The position numbers were made by a program, and so were the translations under genes. The notes beneath the pieces are model-generated. The model did no database searches and was not told the origin of the DNA. It saw nothing but the letters and a program-made list of their open reading frames with translations. Below are positions 6,693-63,341 of a stretch of DNA of 64,000 nt, piece by piece. Source of the stretch: Plumapathes pennacea. Taxonomy: Eukaryota > Cnidaria > Anthozoa > Antipatharia > Myriopathidae. The first letter of the stretch is position 1. The number at the start of each line of letters is the position of its first letter. The stretch lies in NCBI GenBank assembly GCA_964036295.1, contig OZ038465.1:4223167-4287166 (forward strand). The letters are read 5' to 3'.

Positions 6693-9600
6693 TTACGGGG
6701 CCTCTAGCTGCAAATCTACTTCAAAATCTTCCGTAGACTTCGCATTTGGTGGGTCCGCTCCATTGTCATTTGAGTCCGGGCCCTCCAGAACATTATACTC
6801 GGGAGACGAAGAATTGTCGGGATCCTCGGAAATGGGAGAATCTCCCTCGGATTTTTCCGTAAGATTCGCATTTGGTCGGTCATTTGAGTCTGGGACCTCT
6901 AGCACATAATACTCGGGAGCCGAAGAATTGTCGGGATCCTCCGAAATGTGTAAGTCTGCCTCAGAATCTTCCATAGAATTCGCATTTGTTTGGTCCACCG
7001 TATTGTCCTTTGAGTCCGGACCCTCAAGCACATAATACTCGGGAGACGAAGAGTTGTCGGGATCCTCTGAAATGTGCAAATCTGCCTCAGAATCTTCCAT
7101 AGAATTCGCATTCGTTCGGTCCACTCCATTATCCTTTGAATCCGGGCCCTCGAGAACATAATACTCGGGAGCCAAAGAATTGTCGGGATCCTCTGAAATG
7201 TGCGAATCTGCCTTAGAATCTTCTATAGACTTCGCATTTGGTGGGTCCACTCCATTGTCGTTTGAGCCCGGGCCCTCAAGCACATAATACTCGGGAGACG
7301 AAGAATTGTCGGGATCCTCTGAAATGTGCGAATCTGCCTCAGAATCTTCTATAGACTTCGCATTTGGTGGGTCCACTCCATTGTCATTTGAGCCCGGGCC
7401 TTCAAGCACATAATACTCCGGAGACGAAGAATTGTCGGGATCCTCGGAAATGGGAGAATCTCCCTCGGATTTTTCCGTAAGATTCGCATTTGGTCGGTCA
7501 TTTGAGTCTGGGCCCTCTAGCACATAATACTCGGGAGCCGAAGAATTGTCGGGATCCTCCGAAATGTGCAAATCTGCCTCAGAATCTTCCATAGAATTCG
7601 CATTTGTTTGGTCCACCGTATTGTCCTTTGAGTCCGGACCCTCAAGCACATAATACTCGGGAGACGAAGAGTTGTCGGGATCCTCTGAAATGTGCAAATC
7701 TGCCTCAGAATCTTCCATAGAATTCGCATTCGTTCGGTCCACTCCATTGTCTACTGGGCCCTCAAGAACATAATACTCGGGTGCCGAAGAATTGTCCGGA
7801 TCCTCCGAAATGGGAGAATCTCCCTTGGGAGATTTTTGCTCCACTTCACTTTCATTTGAGTCCGGGCCCTCTAGAACGTAGTAGTCTGGAGATGACGGAG
7901 TTTCGTGAACCTCAGAGGAGCCTAAAAAAGAGGTACCCGAACTGGTTTCATTTTTATTACCTGCTTCAGTTTGGTTGGCTCCATTGTCTCTATTCTGTGA
8001 CACGCTCGTCGACGGGTCGACTGTCTCACTATTATGCCCAAGCTCATGTGGAATATCGCATTCAGAAACAAGGTCTGCTGCAGATCAAGAACAAGAAAAT
8101 CGTTTTGAGAACGTGAAATCGGAATTAAGAAAGTAAAATCGATCACTGTGAGAAGTGAAAGGTCGAGAGAGGATCGGTTAGCGAAAATAGGTTACAAGGG
8201 TTTTTATTCTTCTTCTAAAACAATGTTAAATCTGTACCTGGTATTTTTGTCCCATTTACTGTTTTCAAACAGTGTTCCTTTTGTTTTGGTAACTAAGACA
8301 CAGGGAGAAAAACAGAAATGTAGAACAGTGTTTGTTACGGTATTATTACGTAAGCTTGTTGTTGTTGTTTGTTATAAATAATCACGTAGCGTTGTTGTTG
8401 TTGTTGTTGTTGTTGTCTATTTGTTAGAAACTCGAGGATACCTTTTGTGATGCGGGGTAGGTTCCGGTGTAACAGTCTGTTTTGGTCCCCTGACCAGAAT
8501 GTCCCCCAACCCCCCGAATATTTTTGCCCTGGCTAAAATCTGGCCCAGGCTGCAATGTCCCAATTCTCCATGTTTGACACGTTCACTAACAACTTTTCAG
8601 CTTCAGCTTCACGAGTTTTACTGACATTTACCGAGTTTTTTGCCGACAGCTATCGGAATCTATCCAGTGATTTCTCTTAACCACGGCCGTTCGTTCGAAT
8701 CCACCAGAAAACAGGTTTCCTTCGTAGTTGTGGGGGGGGGGGGGGGGGGGGGGGGGATAGGGGGCAATAAATTGCATAGTCTTTTATAATATGATATACA
8801 TCTCTCAACATATGGGAGAAGTGTGCAATTGTAAGCTTTACCTGCTTGGAAACTGGACCAGTGAGTGAAGCGTAAAACGACTCTCTCTTGCTGCCGGGGT
8901 TGAGATCCTCGTACACCGACTGCTTTCTGACTTGCGTATCAGGTTCCTTCTTTTTAACTTTGGTCTTCTTAGTCCCTTTCGCCAGGCTGTGGTACACGGA
9001 ACAGTCCGTATCGTCTGCAGTTGAATATATTAATACTTTTAATGGATGGCATACCAAGCTGACGCTGCGGTCACCTTAGTTTTTTAGTCAGCGGTCATTG
9101 CACACAAATGTGGATTGAAATGCAGATTTTGTATTTGAGCATAACACTCGTACAATCTCAAAACCTATGCAACAATCTAATACTAGGACTTGGGTCTCCA
9201 CTATAAGTTAGTTCAATGCATTTCCTATAACGTACATTGCGCACAAGAAAAATGGGGTTTGCACACGATGTGGAGTTTTACCTTTACAAGAACTCTAACT
9301 AAAGGAAGTGACGTCAAGAACGTGTACATGAGGTGAATTGGCACCGGGACGTCACTTCCGTTTGTCAACGGTCATCACCATTAGTGTGAGTAGCACATTA
9401 CATTGTGTACAAGGCATGCGTTTCTTTCGTACACTGCTGAATGCTGTCAAAAATATTTTGAACCAAGGAACGTATTGTATTACTCGAATATAGGGTCATC
9501 TTAGTTCAGGTACGCAAAGATTTATGGACTTTTTGTTTCTGATTGCAATTTTTTGGTAGAGCTGATTGGCCGAGCAAAGTAACGACAGCAATCTGAAGTT

Positions 9601-12600
9601 TAGCCAATCATTCCACCACCTGAACACCCACCTATTTGATCCCTCGAGAAAATCTCTCCCGGTTTCAAATCCTCGTAGTGGCTGAGCCGTCTCGTCTTCT
9701 TCTTCTTCTTTCCTTGCCCCACTGGACTCCCTGGTAGTGGATCTGTAAATTTTCTTGATCTCGGCAGAGGGGCAAAAGCAGGGTTGCAAAAGGAAAACTC
9801 GTACATATCATTCCCTGAGAAAAATGAGAAAGAAAAAATAATAGGTGGAAACGACAATGAGGTCTCGTCTATAATACTCCATATTTCTTGGCATTCGATT
9901 AATCTTTTATTGAAGTCAGTATTCAGCGATTAGCCATCCAACATTAATTATCAATATCTAGATTTTCTAATGTTCTACAAAAACAACTGATTTTGAAAGT
10001 CAGAGAAAACCTCGCAAATACTCCTGTTTTCTGAAGTGAGCCATCTTGGCCTAAATTCAGATCATTATACATTCACCATGAGCACGTCCTGGCGCACGAA
10101 ATCCAATCTCCGGAACTTCATCGTAGTCTGGTTCATTTGAATAAAGATTCTGAGAAGAAGAAAAGTAGTAATTAGTAACATGCAATCACTCTACGTGGAA
10201 TTCTGATTCACAGACTGGTGATTTACCGTGTGCTGTTCAGTTGAAACCCCCTCAATATAACTTTAGGAGTGTTGTTTGAAATGCTATTTGTGAGAGACAA
10301 AATAACATATGATATGAACTAGACTCATACCTGTCTACTGGCAACAGGATTGTGTATAACTGAAAAAAGGGAGCAAAAATACAATCAGATCAATATAATA
10401 CAGTTAATTATCCAACTCCGATCCAACATTAAGTCTCTCATAGTTCAAGACTGCTGTAAAATATATAGTACATACAACAATATAGTATTTGAGGCAAACA
10501 GTATATTCAAGCAATTGAATCAAACATACCAGTAACGTTGTAGTTGTTATGCCTCCTCCTATCATCACACAGCAGAAATAAGAATAACTCAGAGGCATAA
10601 CACACCAAAAATATAAACTACTTAATAAATAAATTATTAATATTACCATATCTAGTTATACAGGCCAGATATGTGCACATTCAGATCTTGCTCTGCTATG
10701 ACAAGCATTTTGACTACTTCATTCACTTGTACCACCTTTGTGGACATATTTTGTAACTTTTTACATATTTTATAACTTTATGACATATTTTGTAGCTTTA
10801 TGACATTTTTTGTAACTTTATAACAAAATTCTCACAAATTTTGGACAAGTCATGTGTGATCATTCAACTGCAAACTAAGATTACGTTAATTTGTGCTTCT
10901 TATTTTAGGATCATAAATACTTGAAATCAATTTATGGGTTAAGTTTAAAGAACTTTTTCTGCTGGTCAATAAATTCCCTCAAATACATACCTCCGCCTCT
11001 GCCACAGGATCAGTAATATAACAATCCACATGACTGAAATGCCCACAAGTGCACCAATAATTGCCACAATTGCAATGCCAACTTTAGTTGACAAATTATT
11101 TTTCCCATTCCCCTGATGACTGTCACTTGATGGTGGAGAAGAATATGCCTTACGGACCTTTTTGAACATAGCAAATAAGAAGATTTGTTGTTAAACAAAA
11201 TAACAAAAAAAAAACAGGGATGCTGCTATTAATAATGCAAATTAATATACAGATGGCATGTTTGCATCAGAGATCAATATAGATGTAGGCTGGGGAATCC
11301 TGTAATTGAGCAGTACAAAATAATAGCCTTGAGAAGGAATAATTAATTCTTTCCAAAAAAAAATGCCACCAAACTAAAAACTATACAAGCATTTTCTCTA
11401 AAACTTAGCATTTACACTAATATTAAAGTGTTCATTTCTGCAGCTACCTCATAAGCAAGGCTGGTGTTTGTCCATAAGTTATGCATTATCTATAAACACA
11501 AAAAAAAACCTGTCTGGATCTTTTTCAGTTTAAATATTTGGCAAAAAGTAACCTTTGTTAGTCTCTCACCCTGCTTGGAGTTTTAGTGCTTCTTGAAAGC
11601 ATCCCACCTTGTGTTGAGATAGCAACCTGACCATGTTTTGTACCTAAAATGCACATACATATAATTTACTATTTGCTGAACCTACATTAACATGGGAAAT
11701 TTAATTGCAAAATTCACTAAATTCTGACAGTTTATCATACCTTACTTAAAAGTAATACTAACTTGTTAATGTTCCACTGGCTTTAAAAATCAAGCATCTT
11801 CTCACTATCTGTGCATCCTGTGTCCAGCAAGAAAAAGTCACTTTTATTATGTATCCTGCTCCTGCAGAGTCAAGGTCAGGACCACCACAAATCTGAAATG
11901 TTGGAAGAGGAGAGAAATGTCAGATCACAGTGTCTGCATTTCTTTGCTCATATTGCATGTTATGGTATGTTTTTTTCCAAAGAAGGAGGATGGTGGCTCA
12001 TGAGATAGCTGGGCAATGCATTGTTAATCAGGTCTAGTAATCATTTACCAAAAAAGTCAGGTGTAAGTCCCATGCATTACTGTTTTCTTACAAAATATAT
12101 AATTAATATTATCCTACTGCTACTAAGTTTGTCTTACACAAAAACATAATATATAAAAATGTAGGGTTTTTTTTTTTGCTAGTCTTCATAAGACCTTCCA
12201 AGACCTGGTCAAGATCTTGCTAATTCAAAATTGTATAAGATCTTGTAAGATTTTGTCACATTGTTGAAAGATCAGCAAAGATTTATCAGGCCAAGATCAG
12301 GTCAAGATCTAGCTTTTATTTTGGATAGGTATATTGCAAAATACTGTTGAGCGGCCAGCTGCCAGATCTCAGATAAGATAAAGCCAAGATCATAGCTAAA
12401 CTCCTGCAAGATCTTAGCTAAGATTTTCAACATGGAAACTACAGTCTACTACATGCCATTCTCATGAAACCACAACCACAAGCTGTACTTTTTTGGCACC
12501 TTACTGTGCATATATAAAATAATTCACCTGCAGAGAAGATCCATTGATAGACACTGGACCAATTCTTTTATCTCCTGGAGAAGATACTGGTAGCTCTTTG

Positions 12601-14398
12601 GGCTTCCAAGAGCCGGCCGAATCAAGAATCTTGACGCTAGCCTTAGCAGACTTTGGAATGCTACACATTAAAATGTTTGGACTTAGCACAAATCTATAGC
12701 GATGCGGAGATTTGTTTCGAAGATTAATGAGCTGAAGATAATCATCACCATTGTTTGGATCATCATGCCAGTCCATGCATCCATTCTCTGTAAACAAGAA
12801 TTTTATACATTAGCCACCTTTAGTAGGCCTGGCAGTAAAATATGTGTCTGAATGGTCTGGAAATTATTTATAACTGACTAGCTGAGATGATAAGGGTGTT
12901 GACCAGAATCTATGTTGAAACTTTTGAACCAAGAGGCCATAGGTTCAATTCCTATGCTGGCATAACAGTATTCAAAGTTATATAATATTATTTTTACTAT
13001 TTAAGAGGTTTTCCACTGTAAATTCGAGCAATGTACACAAAAAGTCTACCAGAAAAAGAAGCACTATTTCTGTGAGTTATTTTGATTTCCTAGTTTGACT
13101 GTGTAAGACGATCATGCATGAGTAACACTGAAAAAATTCAAGAAGAGCAACTTGGGAAGATGTGAGTCTTTTTGGTTGCCTTCCTAGCTCAAGATGTGCA
13201 ATAATACATGTGTGTGTTATCATCGTAAAATAAGGATTTGATAGGAATATTCGTCCTCCTGTTTCTTGAAGAGTTTTGTGAATTATCTTTCCGTGTTACA
13301 TTGAAAGATGCCTGCAGGCATCAAGATCTTCAAGGAAGTGGCAAATAATTCTCAATCACAAATAAATTGTGTTGGACACTAGTTGTTTTGTTTTACTCTG
13401 ATCATTACTTGGGTTTACAGTGGAACATTACAAATTCACAGTGATGTTAGCGGTCGGTTTCACGCTTTAATAAGTGTAAACACAAGCAAGTAATTACGCT
13501 CTTTCACCTCACAGAGATTTTAAAGGCGTTCTCTAGCAGTTTCTTCGGACCCTCAGACCTTTTGGACTTCACTCTGACTTCACGCGCATTACATATTCCC
13601 TAATTCCTATTCTCAGTTAAAGGCAATTTCGTTCCGTTCTGAAGCCGTACGGCGAGGTAACTTCTCCTTCACAGATAAAGATTTACTAACGTCTGGATGG
13701 AGGAATACGTGACGCGTTTTTTCGCGTAACGTACACTATAATACGAAAAAATATATGAAATCATTTCAAAATCAGCCAATTTAATGATAAAAACGTCTCA
13801 GGCAATAGAAAATTGTATTTTTGTCAGATTAGAAAATATTCTCCAGATTTCAGCTGTACGCCCGTGCGTACGTGCGTATATGATAGCTACGCCCCTGTTT
13901 TCGTTTACCTATATACAGAGGAATGTTTCTTCGTTTAGCTTCCTGAGCAGAAAAACATTTTACGTGCTTAACTTGAGCCTTTAATTAGCCACCCGGGAAA
14001 CATCACAAGAAATGTAATGTTTCCTCGTTTAGCCTAAATCATTGCATTGGCATGTGTACACAATATTGTATGCACGCACGTACACCATGAATAAACAATT
14101 CTATGAATTATTCTTCATACAACTTACCCGCAATGATATCACGACCAACAGTGCATTCTCCCTTATTTATCTGAAAGACTGAGTTTGATGGACGACACTC
14201 ACAGGTTTGAGTTCCGAAGCATTCCGCCTTTTTCGAAGAGCATATTTTACATTCCTCTGTGAACCGATCTTGGTGATGCCGAGTAACATTTAACGACGCC
14301 AAATCACCGCTTGTAGTCTCAAGCATAAAGCACAGAAGAAGATAAAACAGAATAGATGCTCTGAATGCTGCCATCTCGTGACCTCTAGCACCCGCCAT
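6693..14398 (-). CDS. Receptor 1: type I receptor with a tail of ten YYVLEGP-type repeats
   Basis: Twelve exons join with every phase consistent: 14128-14398, 12528-12787, 11763-11892, 11570-11643, 10991-11157, 10530-10558, 10331-10359, 10077-10149, 9632-9814, 8842-9014, 8238-8292, 6693-8077 (942 aa). Exon 1 gives a signal peptide (ILFYLLLCFML) and a Cys-rich part beginning LNVTR. Exons 2-3 complete the ectodomain, ending CLIFKASGT. Exon 4 is a Ser/Thr stalk. Exon 5 holds the helix (VGIAIVAIIGALVGISVMWI) and WQRRR. The tail carries YSNEP, YDEV, HYEDL, VYHSL, VYEDL and YASL, then ten repeats centred on YYVLEGP. The acceptor of the last exon could be 8077 or 8074, and exon 8238-8292 was found because it repairs the phase. 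The ectodomain family is unknown to me; signalling through SH2-domain proteins is inferred from the tyrosine motifs. Confidence 0.75.
6730..7900 (-). repeat. Coding minisatellite: ten phosphotyrosine-motif repeats
   Basis: Ten in-frame repeats of about 31-42 codons lie in the last exon of receptor 1. Each unit has the core PEYYVLEGP followed by a spacer and SEDPDNSS. Eight units keep YYVLEGP exactly. The two units nearest the stop read YYVLEVP and YNVLEGP. Spacers fall into a few types, and a set of three units (spacers starting VDNG/DSKDNG, DSKDNTVDQ, DSNDRPN) recurs, so expansion involved multi-unit duplication. The first tyrosine of each core gives YxxL. Confidence 0.9.
8388..8416. repeat. 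GTT microsatellite
   Basis: A clean run of GTT triplets just outside exon 8238-8292 of receptor 1, in its intron. Confidence 0.8.
8731..8757. repeat. Poly-G run
   Basis: A homopolymer of about 25 G in an intron of receptor 1. Similar runs of G or C lie near 1303-1322, 20922-20940, 44457-44473, 45367-45384 and 58030-58048. Confidence 0.8.
10742..10825. repeat. Short tandem repeat, about 20-bp unit
   Basis: About four imperfect copies of a unit like GACATATTTTGTAACTTTAT, within a receptor 1 intron. Confidence 0.5.
12178..12430. repeat. Cluster of AGATCT-type palindromes
   Basis: Many copies of AAGATCTTG and near variants (AAGATCAGG, AAGATCATAG) lie close together in intron 2 of receptor 1. 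The duplicate is at 30950-31205. Related arrays with GGATCC or AGATCT cores lie at 53241-53660, 55690-55925 and 56280-56765. Confidence 0.65.
12875..12965 (+). mobile_element. tRNA-like SINE candidate (copy 1)
   Basis: The stretch TAGCTGAGATGATAAGGGTG looks like a degenerate polymerase III A box. About 45 bases later GGTTCAATTCC fits the B box consensus. The spacing resembles a tRNA-derived SINE head. The arms do not pair well enough for a working tRNA. It lies in intron 1 of receptor 1. Confidence 0.4.
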
Positions 14399-15132
14399 CT
14401 GCGCCACGACTCATGCCTTGCAATCTGATCTTCTTGTAAATCATGTGATCTCCTGCTGAGGAAATGCCTTTGGGAACGCTGTGCTATTCATCATTAAAAA
14501 GTTAACGTTTGTCATTCGTTTATGTACAGTACTGCAGGAACTGTATTACGTACCCGTTTGACCGTCTGTCATAACTTTTCCATATTTGGTTTTCTGGCTG
14601 AGTGGTATAACCACTGGTAGTAAGTCAAGCAGGCTCAAGGTCAAGCTTCAACTCATTGCGTCACATTGCTCGGGTTCTACACAAATTATTTATGGAGGTA
14701 GAGCAAGAAAACTTCGTTTTAACTTCCTGTATTTTAAAAGCATAAAGTTTAATCGATCAATTTAATCTTATTTCTCGCGGCCGGCTGTCTAAAATATCAA
14801 AATTTGCGGCAGCTTCTTTATAGCATAGCATGAGGAAGGTTTCCTGAAAGTTCATACAATTCTACCGACCGTAGACCAAAAATAAGCATTTCCCGAAAAA
14901 TGCAAAGGCTGCAGCTTTCTTCTCAAAAATGGCCGTTTTTATCAAAAAGGTTTACCACCTGGCTCACTTCTCTGCAAACATTCACTGGTTTGGCCCGCGG
15001 CACTGTGGATACTTCTGTGTAATGAAGTGTGCCGTATAGTATATTGCACACATAATTTCTAGAGAAATAGCAAGAAAACTACGCATTAGCTTTAAACATA
15101 TTTTGTTTAAAAAGCGTCAGCTGATGGTTTAT
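14399..15132. other. Spacer between receptor 1 and the upstream tail gene
   Basis: About 730 bases upstream of the receptor 1 start, inside the segmental duplication, so nearly identical to 33192-33915. It should hold the receptor 1 promoter and perhaps the 3' UTR of the next gene. I see no coding exon. No clear TATA box stands out. Confidence 0.4.
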
Positions 15133-15945
15133 CAGGGGCGGATCCAGGAAATTGAGAAAGGGGGGGCCGAGCGCCGGTAGGTGGGAGCCGCTAGGGGGGT
15201 CCGGGGGCATGCCCCCCGGAAAATTTTGAAATCTTAACCTTCTAAAACAGCAATTTCCTGCATTTTTAGACTATTAAGCTTTTGGAAGCTTATTAAGCTT
15301 TTTTAAGGAAATTTATCTTTCAGGTACTGCCGGTAAATTCGGCGCCGCATCGAACGCGTAATAAAACACTTTGCTGCCTAACGCACACCCCCAATTGGCC
15401 AAACGACAGATAAATCTGTTGCAGCGCGCTAATAGTATAGGAGCCAACAAACTAGGGTCATCCTATTGCAATCATCAATCCCATGCAGATAATATAAGTA
15501 AGAGTCACATCATGGGATTGATGAATGTCATCCTTCTCGGGTTACACGTGGCATAGTCGTCAACACTGTAATCCAAAGGTATATCCTTGTGAACAAGGAG
15601 AGAATGTTCGTCCTCAACAAACCCATTTTCTCTCATTGGCTCTAAGGCTCTTTTCAGACGGATTAATTTTGCAACACAATTACACAAGTACGCCTGGGCC
15701 GATCCCGGGCCGTCAGTGTTGTTCGCACACAGCACGTCATTCCACATTGCTGCTTGTTTCTCTAATTACTGGTAACGAAACTGAACAAAAGTTCTGAATT
15801 GATTGATATAACCAACAACAAAAGACGAAAAACAAAGCCCGTGTACGATTGTAGAGGTCTACGGTCTCTGAAAAAATCCGAGACCCAGACAAAAGGGGGG
15901 GCCGCGGCCCCCTCGGCCCCCCCCCCCCCTCTAAATCCGCCACTG
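15133..15945. mobile_element. hAT-like element with 5-bp target duplication (complete)
   Basis: It starts CAGGGGCGGATCCAGG and ends CTAAATCCGCCACTG, which are inverted matches. It is flanked by TTTAT on both sides (15128-15132, 15946-15950). The duplicate locus has the empty site with one TTTAT (33916-33920), so the ends are well defined. CAG..CTG ends with a 5-bp duplication fit hAT-type (hAT5-like) elements. A minus-strand frame (15505-15747) is not a recognisable transposase, so the element is non-autonomous. Confidence 0.8.
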
Positions 15946-16045
15946 TTTATGATATATTTTCAAACTGTACGCAAAGGAAAATCATGATAGTTACCATGGC
16001 GATGATGACGCCGATGTATAGCCGGAAAACAGTAAAGAAACGTGC

Positions 16046-17619
16046 TTAATTTACATCAAAACGGTCAATGTACGAGTTCCTGTTCATATACAAAGGTTCC
16101 TCGTCGTTACAGTCTCCCTCGCTCTTACATTGTTCCACCGGGGCGTTCAACTGTGTCATCGGGATATTTCCATAGATAGGTGTGCAATCTTCGAGGTTCT
16201 CTTCGCTATTCGTTAGTGGCCTCGGTTTGGGCCGAGGGCGAGCGCTTTCCCCCTTTGTCACGTGACTTTTTGGCTTTTCTGGTGCTGCCACGCCTCGCTG
16301 GTTGCTGGCCTTTCCTTGTGGCCTCACCACAACTGGAGGTCTTTCCACCTTCCCACTGTTAACCGTTCCGTGGTTTTCTTGGTGAATTTGTGGCTTCTGA
16401 AGCACGTTGCAGCTCTTTGATGACTCTGTTCTCGGGCCCCATGAATGTATTCTCTTCTTAGTGCCGTCTTTGACAGCTCTGGGTTCGCACCCTGGGACAG
16501 CCAAGGTGGACGCTTTACATGTTGCTTCCAGGCTGTTGGTGTTCATGTAGATCGGTTCGTCGGTGCCAACGCCCGCGTCAGCTGGAGGGGTACCGTCACA
16601 TGGCCAACTTTTCCTTAGGTGCTGCTCAATCTGAGCTCTTTCGGCAAGCAGTTGACTGTAGTCGGCGTAACAATATTCCTGATCTGCACCGTTTTCACCC
16701 TTCTCGTTGTCATCCTCAATAGCATCAGGCGGCAAATCATAGATATCTTCATCACACGAGTTTTCTTCTGGGCTTGGGCTTGGTGGTAAATCATTCAAAT
16801 ACACCTCGTCATCCTCATCTTCTGGGTCGGGTGTGCCACCCATTACTTCGTACTGCTCTTCTTCATCGCCAAGAATCTCCTTGTTTGACTCTCTCTCCTC
16901 GATCTCGTAGGACACACTAGTGTCTTCACCATTCTGCATACCTCTAGTGTCATTTTCCTTTCCAACATCTTGTGCAATACGCACATCAGAGCTAGCCTGG
17001 CTCGCGGGTAACGGCTGAAGGTGTTCCTTGGGGGTAAGCGCCGAGGGCCGTTCCTGTGAAAGTTCCCGCTTTATTATCATTCATATAACCCATACGACGG
17101 GTATGGACTTGCTCATTGAGGCACAATTTTCTTTCTAAAACATCTTTCTCAGAGTAAATGCCTAGACGAGTAATTCGAATTGCGCTGTCTGACATTGAGT
17201 TTATCTTAGACGACTGACCAAAAACCCTGCATCGTTCATTCTCGTCAGCTTTTGATTTGCGATAGAGAATGGCTATTTTAGGTCTCCAGTGTTGAATAGG
17301 ATAAATACCAAACGACAGATTAGCGTCTGAGTTTGGAATAGGATGTTTCAGATTTATGTCAAACGGCTTAGGCCCACCCGCTTCGAGGAGTGATGAATAG
17401 GACACTGCTCACCTTCACAATCTCTGACAACTTTCGATTGTTCCTGGGCAGGTTCTGATAAAGAGGTTCCATCTGCACTTTACTAGTGTCCGTCCGCAGG
17501 CAGTCAGGACTCCTTTGTGGTGAAGGGCTCGTTCCTTCTTCTAAAGCTTCAGTAAACGCCTCATTTGTTGCACTCATTACATCCATCATTTCCAAGTGAG
17601 CCAAGAGATGCGTTGCGCT
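16046..17619 (-). CDS. Tyrosine-rich receptor tail, copy 1 (two exons)
   Basis: Exons 17413-17619 and 16046-17053 join in phase 0 and encode the C-terminal 404 residues of a receptor tail, nearly identical to the end of receptor 3. Motifs in order include LYQNL, QYEVM, VYLND, IYDLP, YSQL, IYMNT, IYGNI and LYMNR. The intron between them has an open frame in this copy that is shifted in copy 2, so it is not coding. The expected upstream membrane exon is missing: the next exons found upstream are ectodomain and stalk exons at 20998-23327. The stalk exon ends in phase 0 and this tail starts in phase 0, so direct splicing would keep frame but give a product without a membrane helix. Confidence 0.6.
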
Positions 17620-17756
17620 CTGTGGGGAAAATGTCTATCAATATATCCCAGCAACAATTAGTCCTATACTATATGAGATAAACATATGATGAGTAGGCCT
17701 GGGGCCAAATTCTGAGCTAACGTTCCGAGCGTCGGACCATTTAAGGAGTTATAATT

Positions 17757-19698
17757 CTATTGGCTACCTAAAATACTGAGAGACCAAATGACAAGCCGCA
17801 TACAGTAGGTGCCGTTCGCACTTTCGTGTAGTTAAACGAAAATATTGACATTTACAAATTTTCAAGTGCAAATTCATGCATATGGCGCTTTGTCGCCCAC
17901 GAATATAATGTGATCGCTACCCGCGCAAACTTCGATAAATCCGTCGTGTGAGGTTCAAAAAATTACATTATCCGTCCAGTGCGCAGGAACGGCTCAAAAT
18001 AAACAGAAAGTAATATTTTTGGTAAATCTTCTTGTATGCGTACAAGGACGTTCGTGCTACTGTGGCGCATCCAGGGGTGTTTGGAAGGTTTGTCCATTTT
18101 TTGCTCGCTCGCTGATCGCACAAAAAACTAATAGTTACCATTATCCTTCCTTGTTTATAGGCCTGATTTTTAAATTTCTATGCAATACATCTGTCCCCTG
18201 CATGGAGCTTCAAACCTCCCCAAACTATGGCTTCGACGGCGGAAGAATTGGCACGGCAAACATAATCAACAGGAAAGAGTTGGAGAAAGTAGGGTAAAAT
18301 TGCCAGAATTTCCTTGCCCGGGGGTTAAGGAATTTGTAGCATTTTGAAAAGCCCTGGGGACAATCCAGATGCTGTAATATTGCAAGATAAGACCAAATGC
18401 TGGGTGGTGCAACGTAAACACATGTTAATTTCAAGGCATAAATTAACAACACCTTTAGAGCGTATGTTTTGCTCAAGTTTCCGTTAGCCTGACTTAGTGC
18501 TACATTTGCGGCAATCGCGGTATGTACGAAAGACACTTGAAACAAACTCCACGAATTATGTGTTCTCCATAAAAGGTTGCTTTCTTCGATTAATGCGACA
18601 TAGTTTATACAGTGATCCTGCGAACAACGGACTTTTAATTACATATCTCCTGTCACAGTCTCAAATGAGCTGTTACGCATGCGCCGAGCACAAATATTGC
18701 TTTAGAACAGTGCTTACTGACGATTTAAAAATATATATCCAGTGAAAAAGGCAGATATTAAGTAAGTCGGGTATATGGAAGCGGTTATAACAATAAGATG
18801 GTGCAAAGGGTTTATAAAGCAATGAAAGACGTTACAAAGGCACGTCCCATAAGGACGAAGGTCGCCTGTCTGCGACTATATATACCTAATTGTGTGCATA
18901 TATTAAACAAGTCGGCTTAGCATTGTGTAAGCGCTGTTCGGATTTAGGGATAATTCACCATGGCTTGGGGGCCGAATTATCTCTCCCCGTTCGTGCAGCG
19001 TGGACGGGTGTTCAGCAGGGTTGCCCCTCGAACTGGCTTGGGATCCGGACAACTCTCCCCGCGGTGAACGTTTTTTTCTCTTTTTGCAAGCTGGTTGATT
19101 ATTTATTTGTTGCTATCCATTGCTACTGATCAAATGCGCGCATTATTTTCCTTATTTACTACCTAAAATACTGAGAGACCAGATGACGGCGTACAGTAGG
19201 CGCCGTTCGCACTTAGCACTTTCGTGTAGTTAAAAGAAAATGTTGACATTTACACATTTTCAAGTGCAAAATCACGGAAACGGCACTTTGTCGCCCACCA
19301 GTAAGTTGTAAATCGGCACGCGGAAACTTCGAAGAAGCCGTCGTGCAAGGTTAAAAAATTTACGTTTATCCGTCTAGTGCGAACGGCTCGGAATATACAG
19401 AAAGTCACAGTTTTGTTAAAGTTTCTTCTACGCGTACAAGGATTCTCGTGCTACTGTGGCGGGTCCAGGGGAGTTTGGGAGGATTGCCTTTTTCTATCTG
19501 CTCCTTCGCTGATCGTACACAATTCAGTAGAAAAATGATTAATCTTCGTTTTTTACCCTGATTTTGAAACTTCTGTGCAGTACATCTGTCTCCTGCATGG
19601 AGCTGCTCTCGTTCAGCTAAAACTGAATTACCATTTAGTCAAACCTCCTCAAACTTTGTCTTAGCGGTGCATGGAAGAATTAGCACAGCAAACATAAG

Positions 19699-19730
<32 letters not shown>

Positions 19731-20460
19731 AATAGAAGAAAGTTGGAGAAAGTAGGGTAAAATTGCCAGAATTTCCTTGCCCGGGGGTTAAGGAATTTGT
19801 AGCATTTTGAAAAGCCCTGGGGACAATCCAGATGCTGTAATATTGCAAGATAAGACCAAATGCTGGGTGGTGCAACGTAACACATGTTAATTTCAAGGCA
19901 TAATTAACAACACCGTTAGAGCGTATGTTTTGCTCAAGTTTCCGTTAGCCTGACTTAGTGCTACATTTGCGGCAATCGGTATATACGAAAGACACTTGAA
20001 ACAAACCCCACGAATCATGTGTTCTCAATAAAAAGCTGCTTTCTTCGATTAATGTGACATAGTTTATACAGTGATCCTGCGAACAACGGACCTTTTAATT
20101 ACGTATCTCCTGTCACAGTCTCAAATGAACACCAAAAGTACTGCTTAACTCAAGGCATAAATTAACCACACCGATAGAGCGTTTTTATCAGAGCCGACTT
20201 TGCGGAAATCAGAATATACGAAAGACACTTGAAAACCCCACGAATCGTGTGTTCTCCATAAAAATTATTTTCGTCGATCAATACGACATAGTTTATAGTG
20301 ATCTTGCAAATATTTCTCCAGTCACAGTCTCAAATGAACTGTTGCGCATGCGCCAAGCAGGACCAATGTTGCTATAACAGTGCTTACTGACGATTTAAAC
20401 TAAAACTCAAGTGAAAAAGGCAGATATTAAGTAACTCGGGCATATGGAAGCGGTTATAAC
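17757..20460. repeat. Two diverged tandem units in the tail-gene intron (copy 1)
   Basis: Unit 1 (about 17757-18955) and unit 2 (about 19160-20460) share long stretches, for example CTACCTAAAATACTGAGAGACC at their starts, a shared run near 18300-18420 and 19760-19880, and AAGGCAGATATTAAGTAA near their ends. Hydrophobic minus-strand frames repeat because the DNA repeats; they lack splice logic and conserved ends. A run of about 35 A lies at 19690-19727. No membrane exon was found here. Confidence 0.7.
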
Positions 20461-20468
20461 AATAAGAT

Positions 20469-20793
20469 GGCAAATACGGGCCAAAACGAGTGCAAAGATG
20501 GGAGCGTATTGCACTCGTCAGGAACCAGATCAACTGGTTTTATTAGCTTACGTGATCAGTTTTCGCAAGCAAAGTTCACGAACGCGTCATTTTTTGTTCC
20601 ATTTTGCGCGCGGCGAGAATGTTTGCCCTGCTTCGTTTGTCGTGTAATAAACAATTTATTACACGAAAAGTCGTGCAATACGGCTGTATTTTTACTCATC
20701 AGTTTTATTTTTTCTCGCCTGAAGCAGGCTCGAAAAAATAAAACCGACTCGTAAAATACTCCGCCGTATTGCACTCCTTCCCGTGTAATAACC
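20469..20793. mobile_element. TTATTACACG MITE, left end missing
   Basis: Inverted and mostly identical to 50430-50766, where both ends are seen. Here the copy starts at the point where the segmental duplication stops and ends in CCCGTGTAATAA. It marks the junction between the duplicated block and the ectodomain exons upstream. Confidence 0.6.
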
Positions 20794-27298: not shown

Positions 27299-27488
27299 TT
27301 TACTCACTATTCGTTCTATTTCGCTAATATTTGTCACTATCAGAATGTGAGCAAGTTTCCGGCCTTACCGGGATGACGTCACTCACTCGTTTTTAACCCG
27401 TTCTCCCGAATACGAAAAATCTCACGGTTTCATATGACGCGGACTGGTCCGAGCTGGTTTTACCGGAGTTTGAGGGGCCGTAAAATAA

Positions 27489-27790: not shown

Positions 27791-27973
27791 ATTTTGTCAA
27801 CGCGTGCATGCACGGCTCTACATCTGGATATCGATGTATTCGGGTTCAGGAGTTATACAGTGTGTGCCTGTAACTGTCGCCACATTTTCCCGCGTAAAGG
27901 GAGCGTCGCTGTCTACCGTCGGTGGTATGGACAAAATATTGTTGTGAAGTTCCCGTTTCAAAGGACTATCGTT

Positions 27974-34015: not shown

Positions 34016-44145
<10,130 letters not shown>

Positions 44146-48400: not shown

Positions 48401-51400
48401 TATATAATAATTGAGAGAAAAGAATTATCGACGCGGTTTTCACGGGTCACGCGATCGCAGCACCCTCCAAAATAACAGATTGTACCTTTTTGACTCTAGA
48501 ACTAAAAAGAGCACGCCTGAATTAGTCCAGATGCCAATTTTGGATTGTCTAGGCTTCATTTTGGCGAAGCAGGGGCAATTTGTTTTTTGGAGATTTGATA
48601 AGAGTTTGTATGCTGCCGCCATGTTAGTCGAACTCGGAACAAGAAATGAAGTTGATCTGTGACTCAGCTTGATGTTTAGTTACTTCACATCTTTCGCAGT
48701 GCTAATTTTAAAATGTTGCGTGAAGGACCGATTTTAGTCGGCCACGCGCGTGTACACGGCTTTGTTGTCACGGTATTCAAACGTCCATGGCTCCCGATAG
48801 ATATTTTGTATCGACTCAGAATTTTGCTTTAAGTTTTAAGGCATGATAGTCCTGAACATATCAGTGTATTAAACTTATAGGATACGTTACTTTTGAGATG
48901 GCTTTTTATGACGTGACATGCAAACCAAGAATTGAAACCCCTGACTATAAATTTGCATACTGTATGAACTTGTAAACATTCACCGGAAATGGATATTTTT
49001 GGCCGAGATTCAATATCTTTTCGGCCTAGTATCTTCTAAGCCGCATTTACTGTCACTACAGAAATTTTGGCGGATACTAAACCAACGGCTTCAGATTTGT
49101 TTGCGATATATTAACGCCATCGGTGCCACTGATCGTTTGACCTTCATGACACCGCGCCAAACTGTCACAATAACAACGCAAAACACAACAGAGTGAAACA
49201 CAACCAAGCTCAGAATCATTGGCCAAACAAACTTCGAACGCATGACAAACCTTCAAAATGAGAACACGTTCCGAACAAAAATATGGTCGCAACAACTACG
49301 ACAACATCTTGCTTTTAAACTGCGTTGTTCGACACACCCTGTTACGCGACCTTCATCATGGCCAAATTCGGAAAACCGCAACTGCTTTATTTGGAAATCC
49401 ATTGTTGACAACAGAGGGAATGGGGAAGCAGGGAAGCAGGGAAGGAAAGTGATTACTATACCTCGCAAATCCCACAAAGTGGAATTCGCGAGCTAAAAAC
49501 TATGACAAGAAGTTGTACACCCTTTAAACTATCTATGACAAATGGATTAACTGTCGAAAACAATACAGTTAATATTGCTCTCGTTTCGTGTGGGCTTATG
49601 ATTGGTCAAAAGTGTTTCGTACAACCTCTGTGATGGGCGTAGTACTTGGTTTGGTCTTGGTTTTCGATAGCCATCCAAAAACCGCTTTAAAAATTTCAGT
49701 TAGTCAGATTATGTTTTGTAACATTCTTAGCCAATCAAGAGTAGGTAAACAAAACCAGATGTATGGTAGCCCGTTGTCATACAAAAGCCTTCTACATCTC
49801 TGATACATTAGTTCCTGGACTTGCCTTTGTAGACACCACTGTGCTTGATGGTTTCAAAGTTGTAGTTTTCCTGGTCGTCTCTTCTGTAGTCTTCACTACT
49901 TGCTGTGTCTCAGTCGTAGTAGGGTTGGTTACAGTTGTCGAGAAAGTACTGATGACTACACCAGTGTTGGATGTGATGGCTTTGGTTGTTACACTACTTA
50001 TGGGCTGCCACACCTTAGTTGTTGTAATAAGTTGATTGGTTGAAGTCTTGGTGCTTGACGTGATCTTTGGTGGATTAGTTGTTGGAGCAGTACTGATGAC
50101 TACACCAGTGTTGGATGTGATGGCTTTGGTTGTTACACTACTTATGGGCTGCCACACCTTAGTTGTTGTAATAAGTTGATTGGTTGAAGTCTTGGTGCTT
50201 GACGTGATCTTTGGTGGATTAGTTGTTGGAGCAGTAGGTGTTGTTCCAGGAACAGTGCTAACTTTATTGGTGCTCACCGTGGTCCCCTGTGTCTTACTTG
50301 TTGTGGCTGGAGGTGCACTTGTTGATTCACCAATATTATCTACAAAAAAGACATGCCGGTAATTTAACCAAGATTACATAGGATGTTATCTGAAAAACTT
50401 TGATATGGTATGTCTTCTTTAAAAAGAGATTATTACACGGGAAGGAGTGCAATACGGCGGAGTATTTTTACGAGTTGGTCTTATTTTTTCGAGCCTGCTT
50501 CAGACGAGAAAAGATAAAACTGAGGAGTAAAAATACAGCTGTATTGCAAGACTTTTCGTGTAATAAATTGTTTATTATACGGCAAAAGAAGCTGGGCAAA
50601 CGTTCTCGCCACTCGCAAAATGGAACAAAAAATGACGGGTTCGTAAACTTTGCTTGCGAAAATTGATCACGTAAGCTAATAAACCAGTTGATTTGGTTCC
50701 TGACAAGTGCAATACGCTCCCATCTTTGCATTCGTTTTGGCCTGTAATTGCAAAGTCGTGTAATAATAATAATCCTTCCATTCTTGCTGCATCATGTCAA
50801 AATTGGACTTTGATTCTTAGAATGAAAAGCTCAGTCCTCTTTCCCACGTGTCATGAATTTGTTTCAAGTTTCGTATGGATCAAGACCTGTTCTTTAAGAG
50901 TCATTAATTCATTACATGATACATGTGGATCGACAGAACATGTACATGCCAACACAAATCCCAAAAATGAGATGCAACTTCATACAGATCAAGAACTGTT
51001 CTTACAGGTCTTCAATTCATGACAAAATCTATACAAGTCATGTGGATCAAAAAATTTAACTAAATTAAACTAATATAACTTGTTACAAGTGGACAGTATT
51101 AGAAAACCCTAAATGTTCATACATACAGTTTTCAGTTCCTTTTGCTTTAAAGAGGACACACTTTGCCGCTTGGCCATCACATTGATACTCAAACTTCATT
51201 ACGCGACCACTGAAATTGTTTCCAAGTCCCTTCCACTAAGGAATACAAGAAAACACTGAAATATAACTCTTTATCAAACATGTACAGCACATCTTGAAGC
51301 TAAAGAGCCAATACAGATATTCAAATAAGTTATTAAAAGAATATTTTAATGGCCACTGCAGTGCTACTCCCTTGTGAGAAACCGGTATAAAGATAATATT

Positions 51401-54400
51401 GTTAAAGATATAATTTGGTGTATCAACCTACCAATGGCAACGGTTGATGTGGCTCAAGCTGAGATGTTTGGAGCAACAACCCAGTTCATTGGATAGCCCT
51501 TGCTCCAGCAAAGGGCTAATTACACTTGATATAAGTGAAATGTCAGCTTAAACACCAGATCTTACAGTACCAAGTTTATCCACATCACACATCATACATA
51601 TTAATTTTGTAGATATTTCAATATCTACAAAACTGATCTATAATCAATATTTAAAACTAGTATTTTGATTGGGCAGTAGTGAGTGGGTGACAGCTTATGT
51701 AATAAAGTGTTATCCAAATACAGTTGAAGCTCTTGAAGGCGACCACCTCGGAAATTCGAAAAAGTGGTAAGTTGTAACTATAAAGCTGGTCGCTTATGAG
51801 AATGGGCTCTCGTAGGCAACCACACGCTGAACCAATAGAGGCTGGTCATTTACAGAGTTTTTAGCATAAAGCCGCTTGGATGCTCCACCCAAAACTCCCT
51901 TGAACTATTAATTCGAGACTTATCAAGTGAACCATTAGCACAATTAGTCATATTATTACTGTAAATAGGGGGGAGGGGTGCACTCCTATATATGGGCTAT
52001 ACGGGGATGTGCTGCTCAACAGGGTATACTTTTTGTCTCTCCGACTCTAAAATAGGGTATACAAATCACTGTTTCTCTCTGGTTCATTCTGGCTCTGGAA
52101 CAGGGTCAATATTCGTTCCTGCCAGAATCCTTGATGATTTATAGTCGAGTCTGTCGCTGCAAAACAGCTCTGAACTGTTGCTTATCACACAATGCCACAT
52201 GTTTATTCAAGCACGCAGTTTCCGATTTGTGGAGTCGCCTCTAATCTTGAACCGAGGGTATCTATTTTCACCATTTTGTCTGGAACAGAGTAGCAAAATT
52301 GCCTTTCTTTACTCTGGAACAGGGTCAGGGTAACAGGGACTCAGTTGCACACCCCCATACTTAATTTAAGGGAGTGCCCCCCACCCACCACCACCCCTCT
52401 GGATCAAGTAGTGTTCAATTTCAGTAAAGTATCGACTAATACGAGTCAGACCCTTTGAGTGGTCGCTTACGAGAGCTTATAAAACAAAGGAAAAGACCAG
52501 TTGGTAGTTTCTGAAAGTGGTCCTGCTCACTTATGGTAGCAGTCGCTTACAAGAGCTTTTAATTACAGAGTTTGAGTGATAATTCAAACAGGGTTTCACA
52601 CTGGTGGTTGTAACTAGAGCTGGTCACTTACAAGAGTGGTCGCAAGAAGAGCTTTGACTGTAATGCAAGAAACTGTGTATTGAACAGAAGGTTATATTCA
52701 TATTATAGTTGACATACCTCAAAGGAATTTCCATGTATGTAAAATTTCACTTTACCATTTGTAGCTGATGAAACTGAAATCCACTGTTGTCCCTGAAGAT
52801 ACATCCCTCTCTTAATGGAACAGCTTGTGTGTTCTTGCTTCGATAATTTACGATTACCCTTACTTGTAAGGTCCAATATTGTCAATGGCTTTTGTACCCA
52901 CTCTCCATTAAAAAGAGTAACTTTACAACCTGTAAAGCCAAGAAAAAATGAGAATTGACTCACAATAGCAGCAACCACACATGGAATAGTACCAAGAATA
53001 TACAATTAGAATTCTAAGCAAATCTGAGCCTGGAGTCAAAAATCTAAGTCACCTGACCAAGTCACAAGCAGGACCACCATAAAATTTTGTCTGAGCAATA
53101 TTTGTTAAAAAACGGTCAAGTTGGTTGCTTACCATAATTATTTCTTTATTGCTGTCTTTTGACATTCATACACTTAGCATTAACAAATTTGCTCATAACA
53201 GGCATGGTTTATTACTTGGATGGGTGACCACCAGGGAAGAAAATCCTTGCAGGATCCTTAAGGATCCTTAAGGATCCTCAAGGATCCTGCCCAAATTTTT
53301 CTTGACTACAAGGATCCTGCAAGGATCTTGTAAGGATCCTGGCAGGGCAAGATATGCCAGGATCCTTCAAGGATCCTTCAAGGATCCTTCAAAGATCCTT
53401 GCAGGATAAACAAAGCAGGATCCTGTTAAGATCCTGTCAGGATCCTCATAGGATAAACACAACAGGATCCTGGCAGGATCCTAACAGGATCCTAACAGGA
53501 TCCTTGTTAGATAAACATAGCAGGATTCCTGTAAATATCCTGGCAGGATCCTGTTAAGATCCTGGTAGGATCCTGTTAAGATCCTCTCAGGATCCTCATA
53601 GGATAAATACAACAGAATCCTGGCAAGATCCTGACAGTATCCTTGTTGGATTAACATAGGATCGGAGGTATGCTTGTAGCTGGAATGAAATGCCAGTGAG
53701 CCTTGCAGGAAAAAAGTATAACAAGACGGATTTAGAAACATGTTTGTACAGCTTGCACATATGAAATTAAACTTGTGAAGTAATTTTGATGTTTTCTGAA
53801 AGGTACTATTGCCATCGGGTAACAAAGTTTTACTGGGTATCATGATTTTTTATTATAAATAAAAACAGTGGCGTAATTTGTGAGTATATTAAAAAATGAA
53901 ATATTTATTCTTTTTCTTTGCCAAATACTGAAATAATATTGCACAATGCTGTACATGTTGTTGAAAACCGAAACCTCTATTTCACTATAAGATTTAGTGT
54001 TTCTATCAACAATTTGGGATGAAACAAAACAAACAGAATTGGGACGTTTTGTGGCTGACTGACCTCCAAAAGCAAATTGAACGCGTTCCAACGACCCCCC
54101 AACAATTACATTCAGCACGCTTATCCGGTTGATCATCCAAGTTTTTCTCAACCATACAAATTATGTGTATAATTCAAGTCCCGTAACTCTCCTGGACTCT
54201 TCACGTACGAAGTGATTTCCGTGCGTCCGTAAACATTCACTCGTTCAGTGCCTGGGTACTAGTTTGTCACGTGTAAACGAATCAGAGCTCACGCTGGTTC
54301 TGGCGCTTGGATCAACGGTATTTTTTCAGCTCGTGTTGTTGCTCAGCTGTTTCACTTCGTTTTGCATGGGGTTATTCATATTGCCTTTTATTGGATGAAT

Positions 54401-60809: not shown

Positions 60810-61100
60810 GTGTGTTTTAAAAATGGCCATGTGAACATGCACCTTATCCATTTAAGTCCTTTAAATCAACAAGCCTATTTGCCAACCATACTGTTTTGAA
60901 AGCTACAGTATCTATCCTACTGCCTATCAAGTTTGCATACTGCAATCCTACCACATTGCAAGAAATTTGCAGTTTAACACCACTAATTTTCCTGAACAAA
61001 AGTCCTTGAAAACACCATTGTAGGGCTCAGACCAGACCAAATTTTCTGAGGGAGCATGCCTTCAAAGTTGATTGTCAGTATTTGGCACTTTAAAACCTAT
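60810..61100. other. Sequence after the NAPE-PLD exon up to the duplication edge
   Basis: No exon matching the end of NAPE-PLD is visible. At 61101 the sequence switches abruptly to the inside of the hAT-like element seen at 15133-15945. Confidence 0.5.
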
Positions 61101-61697: not shown

Positions 61698-62019
61698 TTT
61701 ATGATATATTTTTAAACTGTACGCAAAGAAAAATAATGATAGTTACCATGGCGATGATGACGCCGATGTATAGCCGGAAAACAGTAAAGAAACGTGCTTA
61801 ATTTACATCAAAACGGTCAATGTACGAGTTCCTGTTCATACACAAAGGTTCCTCGTCGTTACAGTCTCCCTCGCTCTTACATTGTTCCGCCGGGGCGTTC
61901 AATTGTGTCACCGAGATATTTCCATAGATATTCGTTAGTGGCCTCGGTTAGGGCTGAGGGCGAGCGCTTTCTCCCTTTGTCACGTGGCTTTTTGGCTTTT
62001 CTGGTGCTGCCACGCCTCG

Positions 62020-63341
62020 CTAGTTGCTGGCCTTTCCTTGTGGCCTCACCACAACTGGAGGTCTTTCCACCTTCCCACTGTTAACTGTTCCGTGGTTTTC
62101 TTGGGGAATTTGTGGCTTCTGAAGCACGTTGCAGCTCTTTGATGACTCTGTTCTCGGGCCCCATGAATGTATTCTCTTCTTAGTGCCGTCTTTGACAGCT
62201 CTGGGTTCGCACCCTGGGACAGCCAGGGTGGACGCTTTACATGTTGCTTCCAGGCTGTTGGTGTTCATGTAGATCGGTTCATCGGTGCCAACGCCCGCGT
62301 CAGCTGGAGGGGTACCGTCACATGGCCAACTTTTCCTTAGGTGCTGCTCAATCTGAGCTCTTTCGGCAAGCAGTTGACTGTAGTCGGCGTAACAATATTC
62401 CTGATCTGCACCGTTTTCACCCTTCTCGTTGTCATCCTCAATAGCATCAGGCGGCAAATCATAGATATCTTCATCACACGAGTTTTCTTCTGGGCTTGGG
62501 CTTGGTGGTAAATCATTCAAATACACCTCGTCATCCTCATCTTCTGGGTCGGGTGTGCCACCCATTACTTCGTACTGCTCTTCTTCATCGCCAAGAATCT
62601 CCTTGTTTGACTCTCTCTCCTCGATCTCGTAGGACACACTAGTGTCTTCACCATTCTGCATACCTCTAGTGTCATTTTCCTTTCCAACATCTTGTGCAAT
62701 ACGCACATCAGAGCTAGCCTGGCTCGCGGGTAACGGCTGAAGGTGTTCCTTGGGGGTAAGCGCCGAGGGCCGTTCCTGTGAAAGTTCCCGCTTTATTATC
62801 ATTCATATAACCCATACGACGGGTATGGACTTGCTCATTGAGGCACAATTTTCTTTCTAAAACATCTTTCTCAGAGTAAATGCCTAGACGAGTAATTCGA
62901 ATTGCGCTGTCTGACATTGAGTTTATCTTAGACGACTGACCAAAAACCCTGCATCGTTCATTCTCGTCAGCTTTTGATTTGCGATAGAGAATGGCTATTT
63001 TAGGTCTCCAGTGTTGAATAGGATAAATACCAAACGACAGATTAGCGTCTGAGTTTGGAATAGGATGTTTCAGATTTATGTCAAACGGCTTAGGCCCACC
63101 CGCTTCGAGGAGTGATGAATAGGACACTGCTCACCTTCACAATCTCTGACAACTTTCGATTGTTCCTGGGCAGGTTCTGATAAAGAGGTTCCATCTGCAC
63201 TTTACTAGTGTCCGTCCGCAGGCAGTCAGGACTCCTTTGTGGTGAAGGGCTTGTTCCTTCTTCTAAAGCTTCAGTAAACGCCTCATTTGTTGCACTCATT
63301 ACATCCATCATTTCCAAGTGAGCCAAGAGATGCGTTGCGCT
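62020..63341 (-). pseudogene. Tyrosine-rich receptor tail, copy 3, nonsense-truncated
   Basis: Exons 63135-63341 and 62020-62775 match the last two exons of receptor 3. A C-to-T change (on the coding strand) turns the Gln codon after KASN into TAG at 62020-62022, removing about 85 C-terminal residues including the IYGNI and LYMNR motifs. A further 30-base in-frame deletion past the stop (near 61930) has removed IYGNI from the DNA as well. The ectodomain and helix would lie beyond 64000. It may be a pseudogene or a receptor with a shorter tail. Confidence 0.7.

Follow-up and report, generated by a model that had tools for sequence, protein, structure and literature searches.

A tandem cluster of candidate receptor genes with modular ectodomains and tyrosine-motif tails in Plumapathes pennacea

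RESULTS

Gene models in the window

The stretch of Plumapathes pennacea DNA analyzed here (the window; 64,000 nucleotides, C4:4223167-4287166) carries a tandem cluster of genes that probably encode type I receptors with tyrosine-rich tails. Contig C4 makes up 27.2 of the 290.0 Mb of the assembly (24 contigs). Four minus-strand genes (g1, g3, g4, and g5) were rebuilt from exons with splice consensus; splice sites were set by eye on the DNA, and intron phases were checked by script. The cluster, which includes two damaged loci (g2 and g6), extends from 6693, the last base of the g1 stop codon, to 63341, the first base of g6 exon c3. An earlier note on this DNA had described four minus-strand receptors, the fourth with a tentative first exon, plus two damaged loci, and the exon models bear this out. 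The three ectodomain exons are called E1 to E3, the exon with the transmembrane (TM) helix is called the TM exon, and tail exons are numbered from c1. The features below are exon models; further evidence is given in brackets.

14128..14374, minus: g1 E1, signal peptide and Cys-rich module, Sha_B_N-like, phase 0>1 (Sha_B_N 13.2 to 13.6 bits, below cut-off)
12528..12787, minus: g1 E2, phase 1>0
11763..11892, minus: g1 E3, ends LIFKASGTLT, phase 0>1 (a duplicated block, 96.5% identical, stops 6 bp past the exon)
11570..11643, minus: g1 stalk exon, phase 1>0
10991..11112, minus: g1 TM exon, out phase 2; acceptor could sit slightly upstream (hydrophobicity)
8238..10558, minus: g1 c1 to c6 with SHYEDL, SVYHSL, SVYEDL, and SFYASL; YEDL to YASL nine residues (motif count)
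6693..8077, minus: g1 c7, last exon, ten YxVLE motifs at a spacing of 36 to 42 residues; stop at 6693
32921..33167, minus: g3 E1
31298..31554, minus: g3 E2
30527..30665, minus: g3 E3
29314..29548, minus: g3 stalk and TM in one exon, phase 1>2; kin is a gene at C4:1.328 Mb, not g1 (DNA comparison)
27974..29128, minus: g3 c1 to c4, stop at 27974
43860..44145, minus: g4 E1 (Sha_B_N 16.3 bits for the exon, below cut-off)
43154..43380, minus: g4 E2
42542..42665, minus: g4 E3
42389..42435, minus: g4 stalk exon
41959..42248, minus: g4 stalk and TM exon
41549..41830, minus: g4 c1 and c2
35384..35590, minus: g4 c3, phase 0>0, behind an intron of ~6 kb
34016..35023, minus: g4 c4, YxN-rich tail of 335 amino acids
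58204..58419, minus: g5 E1, Sha_B_N 38.7 bits; runs into a stop without a good donor (Pfam)
52718..52929, minus: g5 E2
51127..51235, minus: g5 E3
49825..50339, minus: g5 Ser/Thr-rich stalk exon, donor GC not GT
47945..48228, minus: g5 TM exon
45824..47326, minus: g5 c1 to c4 with TYDNA, PVYQAL, AFYQAL, and SMYQAL (motif count)

Three genes are open from ATG to stop (g1, 12 exons and 919 amino acids; g3, 8 exons and 421 amino acids; g4, 9 exons and 744 amino acids), with GT-AG at every internal junction, and g5 is open from E2 to the stop codon. One order of intron phases is common to all four (E1 0>1, E2 1>0, E3 0>1, stalk 1>0, TM exon ending in phase 2, c1 2>1, c2 1>0, then c3), with g3 having no separate stalk exon, and it is seen again in the downstream genes g8 and g10. 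The TM exon ends in phase 2 in all four genes and is followed by very short c1 and c2 exons; because these tiny exons hold their phase in four unlike tails, they are strong evidence of common descent. Each gene has one strongly hydrophobic stretch at the TM exon, and g4 has one at the signal peptide as well. Some donors are weak according to a crude matrix (g1/g3 E3, g5 E3, g4 TM, and g1 c6). The only phase-fitting donor tried for g5 E1 (58419-58204) scores -5.7, and since this exon also meets a stop, g5 is possibly damaged at E1; in its nearest relatives, g8 and g10, E1 is open and has a GC donor. The same exons were recovered elsewhere on C4 by Pfam, protein, and profile searches.

Ectodomain

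The ectodomain had been thought to match no family. This does not hold for E1: E1 of g5 matches the Pfam family Sha_B_N (PF23328) with 38.7 bits (E value, 1.2e-9), over the curated cut-off of 24.4 bits, and is the best match to this domain within the gene family. E1 of g1 and of g4 score under the cut-off, and the joined g4 ectodomain has no Sha_B_N match listed at E≤5; we infer their homology through the family, because they have exon phase and Cys pattern in common with members that pass. All 15 aligned E1 members reach E≤1 against the Sha_B_N model, a largely circular count, as 13 of them (not g1 and g4) were originally found with Sha_B_N. The alignment has five invariant columns, occupied by three Cys, one Arg, and one Asp. 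The AlphaFold2 model of E1 has a predicted local distance difference test score (pLDDT) of 90.4 and a predicted template modeling score of 0.75, and no PDB structure matches E1 at E≤0.001.

For exons 2 and 3, the claim of no matching family stands at the sequence level. E2-E3 of seven members hit no Pfam family above cut-off, and PDB searches returned nothing solid (with the profile, no matches or only contactin-4 at an E value of about 1). E2 alone was modeled at an unusable pLDDT of 51.5. In an alignment of seven rows (A7), E2 retains Gly-Cys, Cys, and Trp and E3 retains Cys, Phe-Lys, and Gly-Thr; fewer positions are invariant once two more distant members join (A8). Of the G-C-x-V start once ascribed to the second part, the GC is kept and the x-V is not constant (GCKV in g5, GCKC in g4, and GCMD in g1). 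In sum, the ectodomain appears to combine a Sha_B_N-type E1 with a second Cys-bearing module, E2+E3, that has no assigned fold.

Tails and possible signaling partners

Motifs were counted in five distinct tails (1,112 amino acids with 44 Tyr; the g1 repeats were omitted, and g11 contributed two exons only). YxxPhi occurs 18 times, compared to a mean of 6.5 in shuffled tails, and 0 of 5,000 shuffles reach 18. YxN occurs 7 times compared to 2.9 (108 of 5,000 shuffles reach 7). An immunoreceptor tyrosine-based inhibitory motif (ITIM) is defined as [SIVL]xYxx[ILV] in a cytoplasmic tail; ITIM-type motifs number 5 compared to 1.9 (212 of 5,000), an excess driven by g1. Four of them are in g1 and one, SMYQAL, is in g5; g3, g4, and the two g11 exons included in the count have none. 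The corresponding activation motif (ITAM) consists of two YxxI/L spaced 6 to 12 residues apart. YEDL-x9-YASL of g1 is within this spacing, though both are also ITIM-type, and adjacent YQAL motifs of g5 are ≥13 residues apart.

The motif excess upholds the earlier description of tyrosine-motif tails of the SH2-docking type, but the tails differ from gene to gene: g1 has ITIM-type motifs and the ten YxVLE, g4 has mostly YxN (5 among 12 tyrosines, plus proline-rich stretches), g5 has three YQAL, and g3 is mixed. Some motifs recur across the family, with YLEPV and YDYA common to g3 and g11, and YxVLE found in g1, in g11, and in open reading frames (ORFs) of g13. Five of the six tyrosines in g3 c4 are conserved in g12 despite 20 nonsynonymous changes.

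The genome has 56 SH2 matches. At C5:26.162-26.168 Mb, two SH2 exons have SYK (6e-47) and next ZAP-70 as their best matches, with other SH2 proteins scoring far lower; the best match of the kinase pieces there is an entry labeled epidermal growth factor receptor (9p9u), followed by ZAP-70 and SYK. A Syk-type kinase with tandem SH2 domains is encoded in this genome.

Chimeric genes and duplicated blocks

The E1-E3 blocks of g1 and g3 are 96.5% identical, and the identity ends 6 bp beyond the E3 exon; no DNA match was found between their 3' halves at E≤1e-3, and stalks, helices, and tails are unlike. The reverse arrangement is seen in g3 and g12, which lie 2.9 Mb apart: 1,650 bp from the TM exon through the tail are 81.5% identical, with no DNA match upstream of the TM exon and an E3 identity of 36%. 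The start of the g3 stalk (NGSKPTFYPPTT) recurs, by eye, in the gene at 1.37 Mb. Among g5, g8, and g10, tail exons c3-c4 are 98 to 100% identical, compared to 29 to 69% for E1 and E2, 50 to 92% for E3, and 90 to 94% for the TM exon. Between g5 and g8, identity is 49% (E1), 31% (E2), and 58% (E3) versus 100% (c3) and 98.5% (c4); between g8 and g10, it is 69%, 55%, and 92% for E1 to E3 versus 99% for c4. Finally, the tail exons c3-c4 of g4 recur with 97% DNA identity behind the remains of a g5-type ectodomain in g2, where no TM exon was recognized. These four comparisons demonstrate modular chimerism, in which recognition and tail halves were re-paired.

The duplicated blocks are as follows.

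41340..48260, no strand: g4 E1 to c2 plus g5 TM exon and tail, copy at C4:4290191-4297171 (96.5%)
43906..48260, no strand: part of the same g4/g5 block, second copy at C4:4310131-4314451 (95.0%)
11757..20475, no strand: g1 E1-E3 together with g2 tail, piecewise copies at 30521-38357 (96.5 to 98.0%)

Both copies of the g4/g5 block end at 48260, in the intron before the g5 TM exon, and the ends of the g1/g2 block fall in two introns, the one that follows E3 (11757/30521) and the one that precedes c3 (about 20475/38357). Since several blocks have an end within a gene, in an intron that separates two modules, duplication can join a recognition half to a different output half. Not all block ends lie between modules, as the g9 copy begins inside E1. 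Pieces extend the 48260 block past the g4 stop, which makes g6 a copy of the entire g4 gene. A long ATT run and minisatellites, in head-to-tail or inverted copies (41100-41530, 53260-53600, 55700-55930, and 56270-56765), sit in introns or gaps of the cluster and could promote local rearrangement.

Substitution rates

The mature ectodomains of g8 and g10 have a synonymous rate (dS) of 0.143 and a nonsynonymous rate (dN) of 0.192, a ratio of 1.34 (95% bootstrap interval, 0.77 to 2.62). The g5/g8/g10 tails, pooled from three nonindependent pairs, have a dS of 0.018 and a dN of 0.005 (ratio, 0.29; 0.07 to 1.17). The gap in dS fits recent tail copies behind older ectodomains. No constraint on the ectodomain is detectable, and positive selection is not proven. 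In g1 and g3, E3 has 4.5 synonymous and 9.5 nonsynonymous changes in 129 sites as well as a 9-nucleotide (nt) length difference, and the divergence is 1.3% in intron 1 and 0.8% in intron 2; E3 is a local patch of divergence, perhaps from gene conversion. Five synonymous and five nonsynonymous changes separate the c4 exons of g2 and g4.

Damaged and incomplete copies

Remains of g2 and g6 are found at the following positions.

23099..23327, minus: g2 E2, 229 nt (227 in g8), frame meets a stop (protein/DNA comparison)
22845..22959, minus: g2 E3, without the second Cys (DNA comparison)
20998..21437, minus: g2 stalk exon, two main pieces with 94 to 96% DNA identity to the g5 stalk exon (DNA comparison)
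16046..17619, minus: g2 tail, c3 (17619-17413) and c4 (17053-16046) (DNA comparison)
61801..63341, minus: g6 tail, c3 (63341-63135) and c4 (62775-61801), with TAG, TAA, and a 30-nt deletion (DNA comparison)

No E1 was recognized in g2, nor a TM exon between stalk and c3, and because the TM exon is missing from the model, its tail is linked to its ectodomain by inference only. The g6 ectodomain is open from E1 to the TM exon, just outside the window (C4:4293003-4290815). The g9 remnant has E1 only. In g12 (within C4:1326688-1330500), exon c3 has AA in place of the AG acceptor of g3, so that g12 may skip c3 or be damaged. The g3 tail stops earlier than that of g12; the g3 frame beyond the stop (27821-27976) continues to PEYIDIQM, and the matching stretch is open in g12.

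The family along one chromosome

A genome search with Sha_B_N listed 15 matches at E≤5, of which 11 exceed the cut-off (10 on their own and 1 only together with neighbors in frame). C4 carries all 11, between 1.37 and 9.77 Mb (a span of ~8 Mb), and three of the remaining four; the last is on C1. Further family members came from protein searches: g4-type copies at 4.29 and 4.31 Mb, g5-type E2/E3 at 4.30 and 4.32 Mb, and another E3 at 1.33 Mb, all on C4; the g1 ectodomain was recovered solely in g1 and g3, and the g4 c4 exon had three matches in the genome, all inside the window. Counts from genome searches are lower bounds, and they give at least about 20 loci, all on C4 (18 E1 exons plus the E1-less g2 and g12). 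Tyrosine-rich tails are also present in g8 and g10 (modeled) and in g11 and g13 (ORFs). In a group at 2.5 Mb, E2/E3-like exons are clear downstream of the g13 E1 and weak downstream of two other E1 exons (E values, 0.15 to 0.41); the ORFs of g13, which are not an exon model, go on to encode, in order, a Ser/Thr stalk, a helix, and a tail that contains YQPI, YETL, SIYQAL, and YQPL. The family has duplicated recently and is, as far as found, restricted to a single chromosome.

Several candidates are not counted as family members: the C1 match (20.2 bits) and one at C4:7.86 Mb (19.3 bits; E value of 0.0014 with our own E1 profile), both under the Sha_B_N cut-off; five weak matches to the g4 ectodomain on other contigs (one on C11 and four on C3; E values, 0.095 to 0.29) with no match to the exon profiles; and a match to the g11 ectodomain on C7 (E value, 0.17).

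Neighboring features

Between g5 and g6, on the opposite strand (60100-60834, plus), lies a metallo-beta-lactamase-fold exon (Pfam Lactamase_B_2, 8.2e-30), which we take to be NAPE-PLD-like. A THAP zinc-finger exon just downstream of g3 (27019-27303, minus; Pfam, 3.2e-8) belongs to a family of its own and is not part of g3; a second THAP-looking ORF (39866-40171) has no Pfam match at E≤0.1. At 4775-5074 (plus), a very acidic Glu/Lys-rich ORF of 99 amino acids ends in CCCVVI, resembling a prenylation CaaX end, and has no Pfam match at E≤0.1. Dense arrays of I-set immunoglobulin (Ig) exons are present at C5:17.55-18.01 Mb and C9:0.98-1.03 Mb (150 scored of 1,712 candidates); the former resembles a separate tandem Ig family and the latter a titin-type giant gene. 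C24 carries the mitochondrial genes COX1 and COX3 (code 4), with a LAGLIDADG_1 ORF (2.6e-12) between two COX1 pieces, a layout known from hexacorals and in keeping with an anthozoan.

DISCUSSION

In sum, our data make it fairly probable that the genes encode type I receptors, a convergent analogue of the KIR/LILR or Alr-type receptors that has no detectable Ig domains. Such a receptor would consist of a Sha_B_N-type E1, the Cys-bearing E2+E3 module, a Ser/Thr-rich stalk, one helix, and a tyrosine tail. The ectodomains may bind variable surface ligands, be they self, non-self, or microbial. To judge from the anatomy of the tails, clustering of receptors would lead to phosphorylation of tail tyrosines by Src/Syk-type kinases, and SH2 proteins would then bind the phosphorylated motifs. 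Each tail type may call on a different effector, by ITIM-type or ITAM-spaced YxxL in g1, YQAL in g5, g8, and g10, and Grb2-type YxN in g4, and duplication of part-gene blocks would re-pair recognition and output halves, as in paired activating/inhibitory receptors. Considering duplication, divergence, and chimerism, the best-supported role would be recognition in immunity or allorecognition.

Several observations weigh against this interpretation. YxxPhi motifs also serve in endocytic sorting; ectodomain dN/dS does not exceed 1 significantly; and the g3/g12 tails are under mild constraint only (dN/dS, 0.68). E3, stalk, and TM exon of g5, g8, and g10 are intermediate in similarity, so that more than one event is needed to explain them. 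With g2, g6, and probably g5 damaged, the g9 remnant, and the AA acceptor of g12, part of the family is decaying, and it might be possible that some near-identical copies are unmerged haplotypes.

A bolder version, which we regard as less likely, is that of an anthozoan recognition complex: a chromosome-scale, non-Ig receptor system in which duplicated blocks ending between the halves create new pairings of input and output. Such a complex would be one more case in which a polymorphic locus for allorecognition or immunity, with Syk/SHP-type signaling, was invented independently.

It is rather unlikely, but imaginable, that E2-E3 is a very divergent Ig-type domain and the family kin to Hydractinia Alr or other members of the Ig superfamily, with an extra N-terminal domain. 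Ig exons are often phase 1-1 modules, and Ig domains have a Cys-Trp-Cys pattern and FGxGT; E2-E3 is jointly a phase 1-1 module, and A7 has an invariant Cys37, Trp50, and Cys90 and ends in FKxxGT, which is loosely Ig-like. However, there is no Ig family among the Pfam matches of the seven members, and the PDB profile search gave nothing beyond the contactin-4 match already mentioned. Furthermore, A7 matched 14 I-set domains of the same genome with a probability of 0.4%, within the range of 40 column-shuffled versions (best, 1.2%), and A8 with 0.9% (no shuffled A8 for comparison), whereas halves of the I-set sample find each other at 99.9%. An assignment of E2-E3 as I-set was rejected for this lack of a profile signal.

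Still less probable is an epithelial adhesion or cytoskeletal family outside immunity, whose YxN/YxxL tails would recruit Grb2- or Src-type adaptors for morphogenesis. The sole named domain, Sha_B_N, comes from Drosophila Shavenoid, described as an actin regulator of trichomes (PMC9375228), and the YxN and proline-rich stretches of the g4 tail would suit this role. Yet a conserved morphogenetic gene would not be expected to show recent duplication, decay, and diverged ectodomains on near-identical tails. Since sha is described as insect/arthropod specific in the same source, what is in common is the domain and not the function.

That much of the array is an assembly artifact (unmerged haplotypes) or a field of pseudogenes is very improbable: several copies differ by just 1 to 5%, which could be heterozygosity in such animals, and several have stops or a frameshift or are cut short, but the c4 exon and the g5-type tail are each present in three copies where two haplotypes would give two, which makes unmerged haplotypes unlikely as the full explanation, the copies differ in their flanks and are joined to unlike partner halves, g8 and g10 have reading frames open throughout, and g11 and g13 are far off and diverged.

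The mapped family with its modular, tyrosine-tailed members offers concrete candidates for genotyping and signaling assays, and duplication of part-gene blocks would be a simple route to re-pair receptor ligand and output. No paper describing the receptor family was found in open-license PMC full texts, which is weak evidence of absence.

The comparison with known systems supports the earlier proposal of a tandem array of modular receptors whose plan resembles that of KIR/LILR and Alr clusters; the spread along one chromosome, the reciprocal chimeras, and the Syk-type kinase go beyond that proposal. Vertebrate KIR/LILR are tandem genes that place similar ectodomains on different tails, with ITIM-type motifs and Ig domains. 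The Plumapathes cluster is likewise tandem, has one ectodomain on different tails (g1/g3), and has ITIM-type motifs, but no Ig domains are detectable by sequence. With Drosophila Shavenoid, which is reported to act on actin when hairs are formed (PMC9375228), the likeness is the N-terminal Cys-rich domain by Pfam profile, and the comparison covers that domain alone. A review of coral and ascidian allorecognition names no coral receptor genes in the part available (PMC12018476). In Hydractinia, 41 Alr members with ITIM/ITAM-type motifs are reported (PMC11999971, PMC12065747); both systems are clusters of candidate or known recognition genes with such motifs, although here they go together with Sha_B_N and a module without detectable Ig signal. 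The fester coreceptors (FcoR) of Botryllus are described as a multigene family with ectodomains of Ig plus sushi domains and long tails that carry ITIM, hemITAM, and core YxxI/L/V motifs (PMC12065747). Pfam scans found no domain that the genes described here have in common with FcoR, but they too form a multigene family with tyrosine motifs in long tails, and a tandem cluster with recent duplications, a trait of KIR/LILR, Alr, and FcoR, is found in P. pennacea as well.

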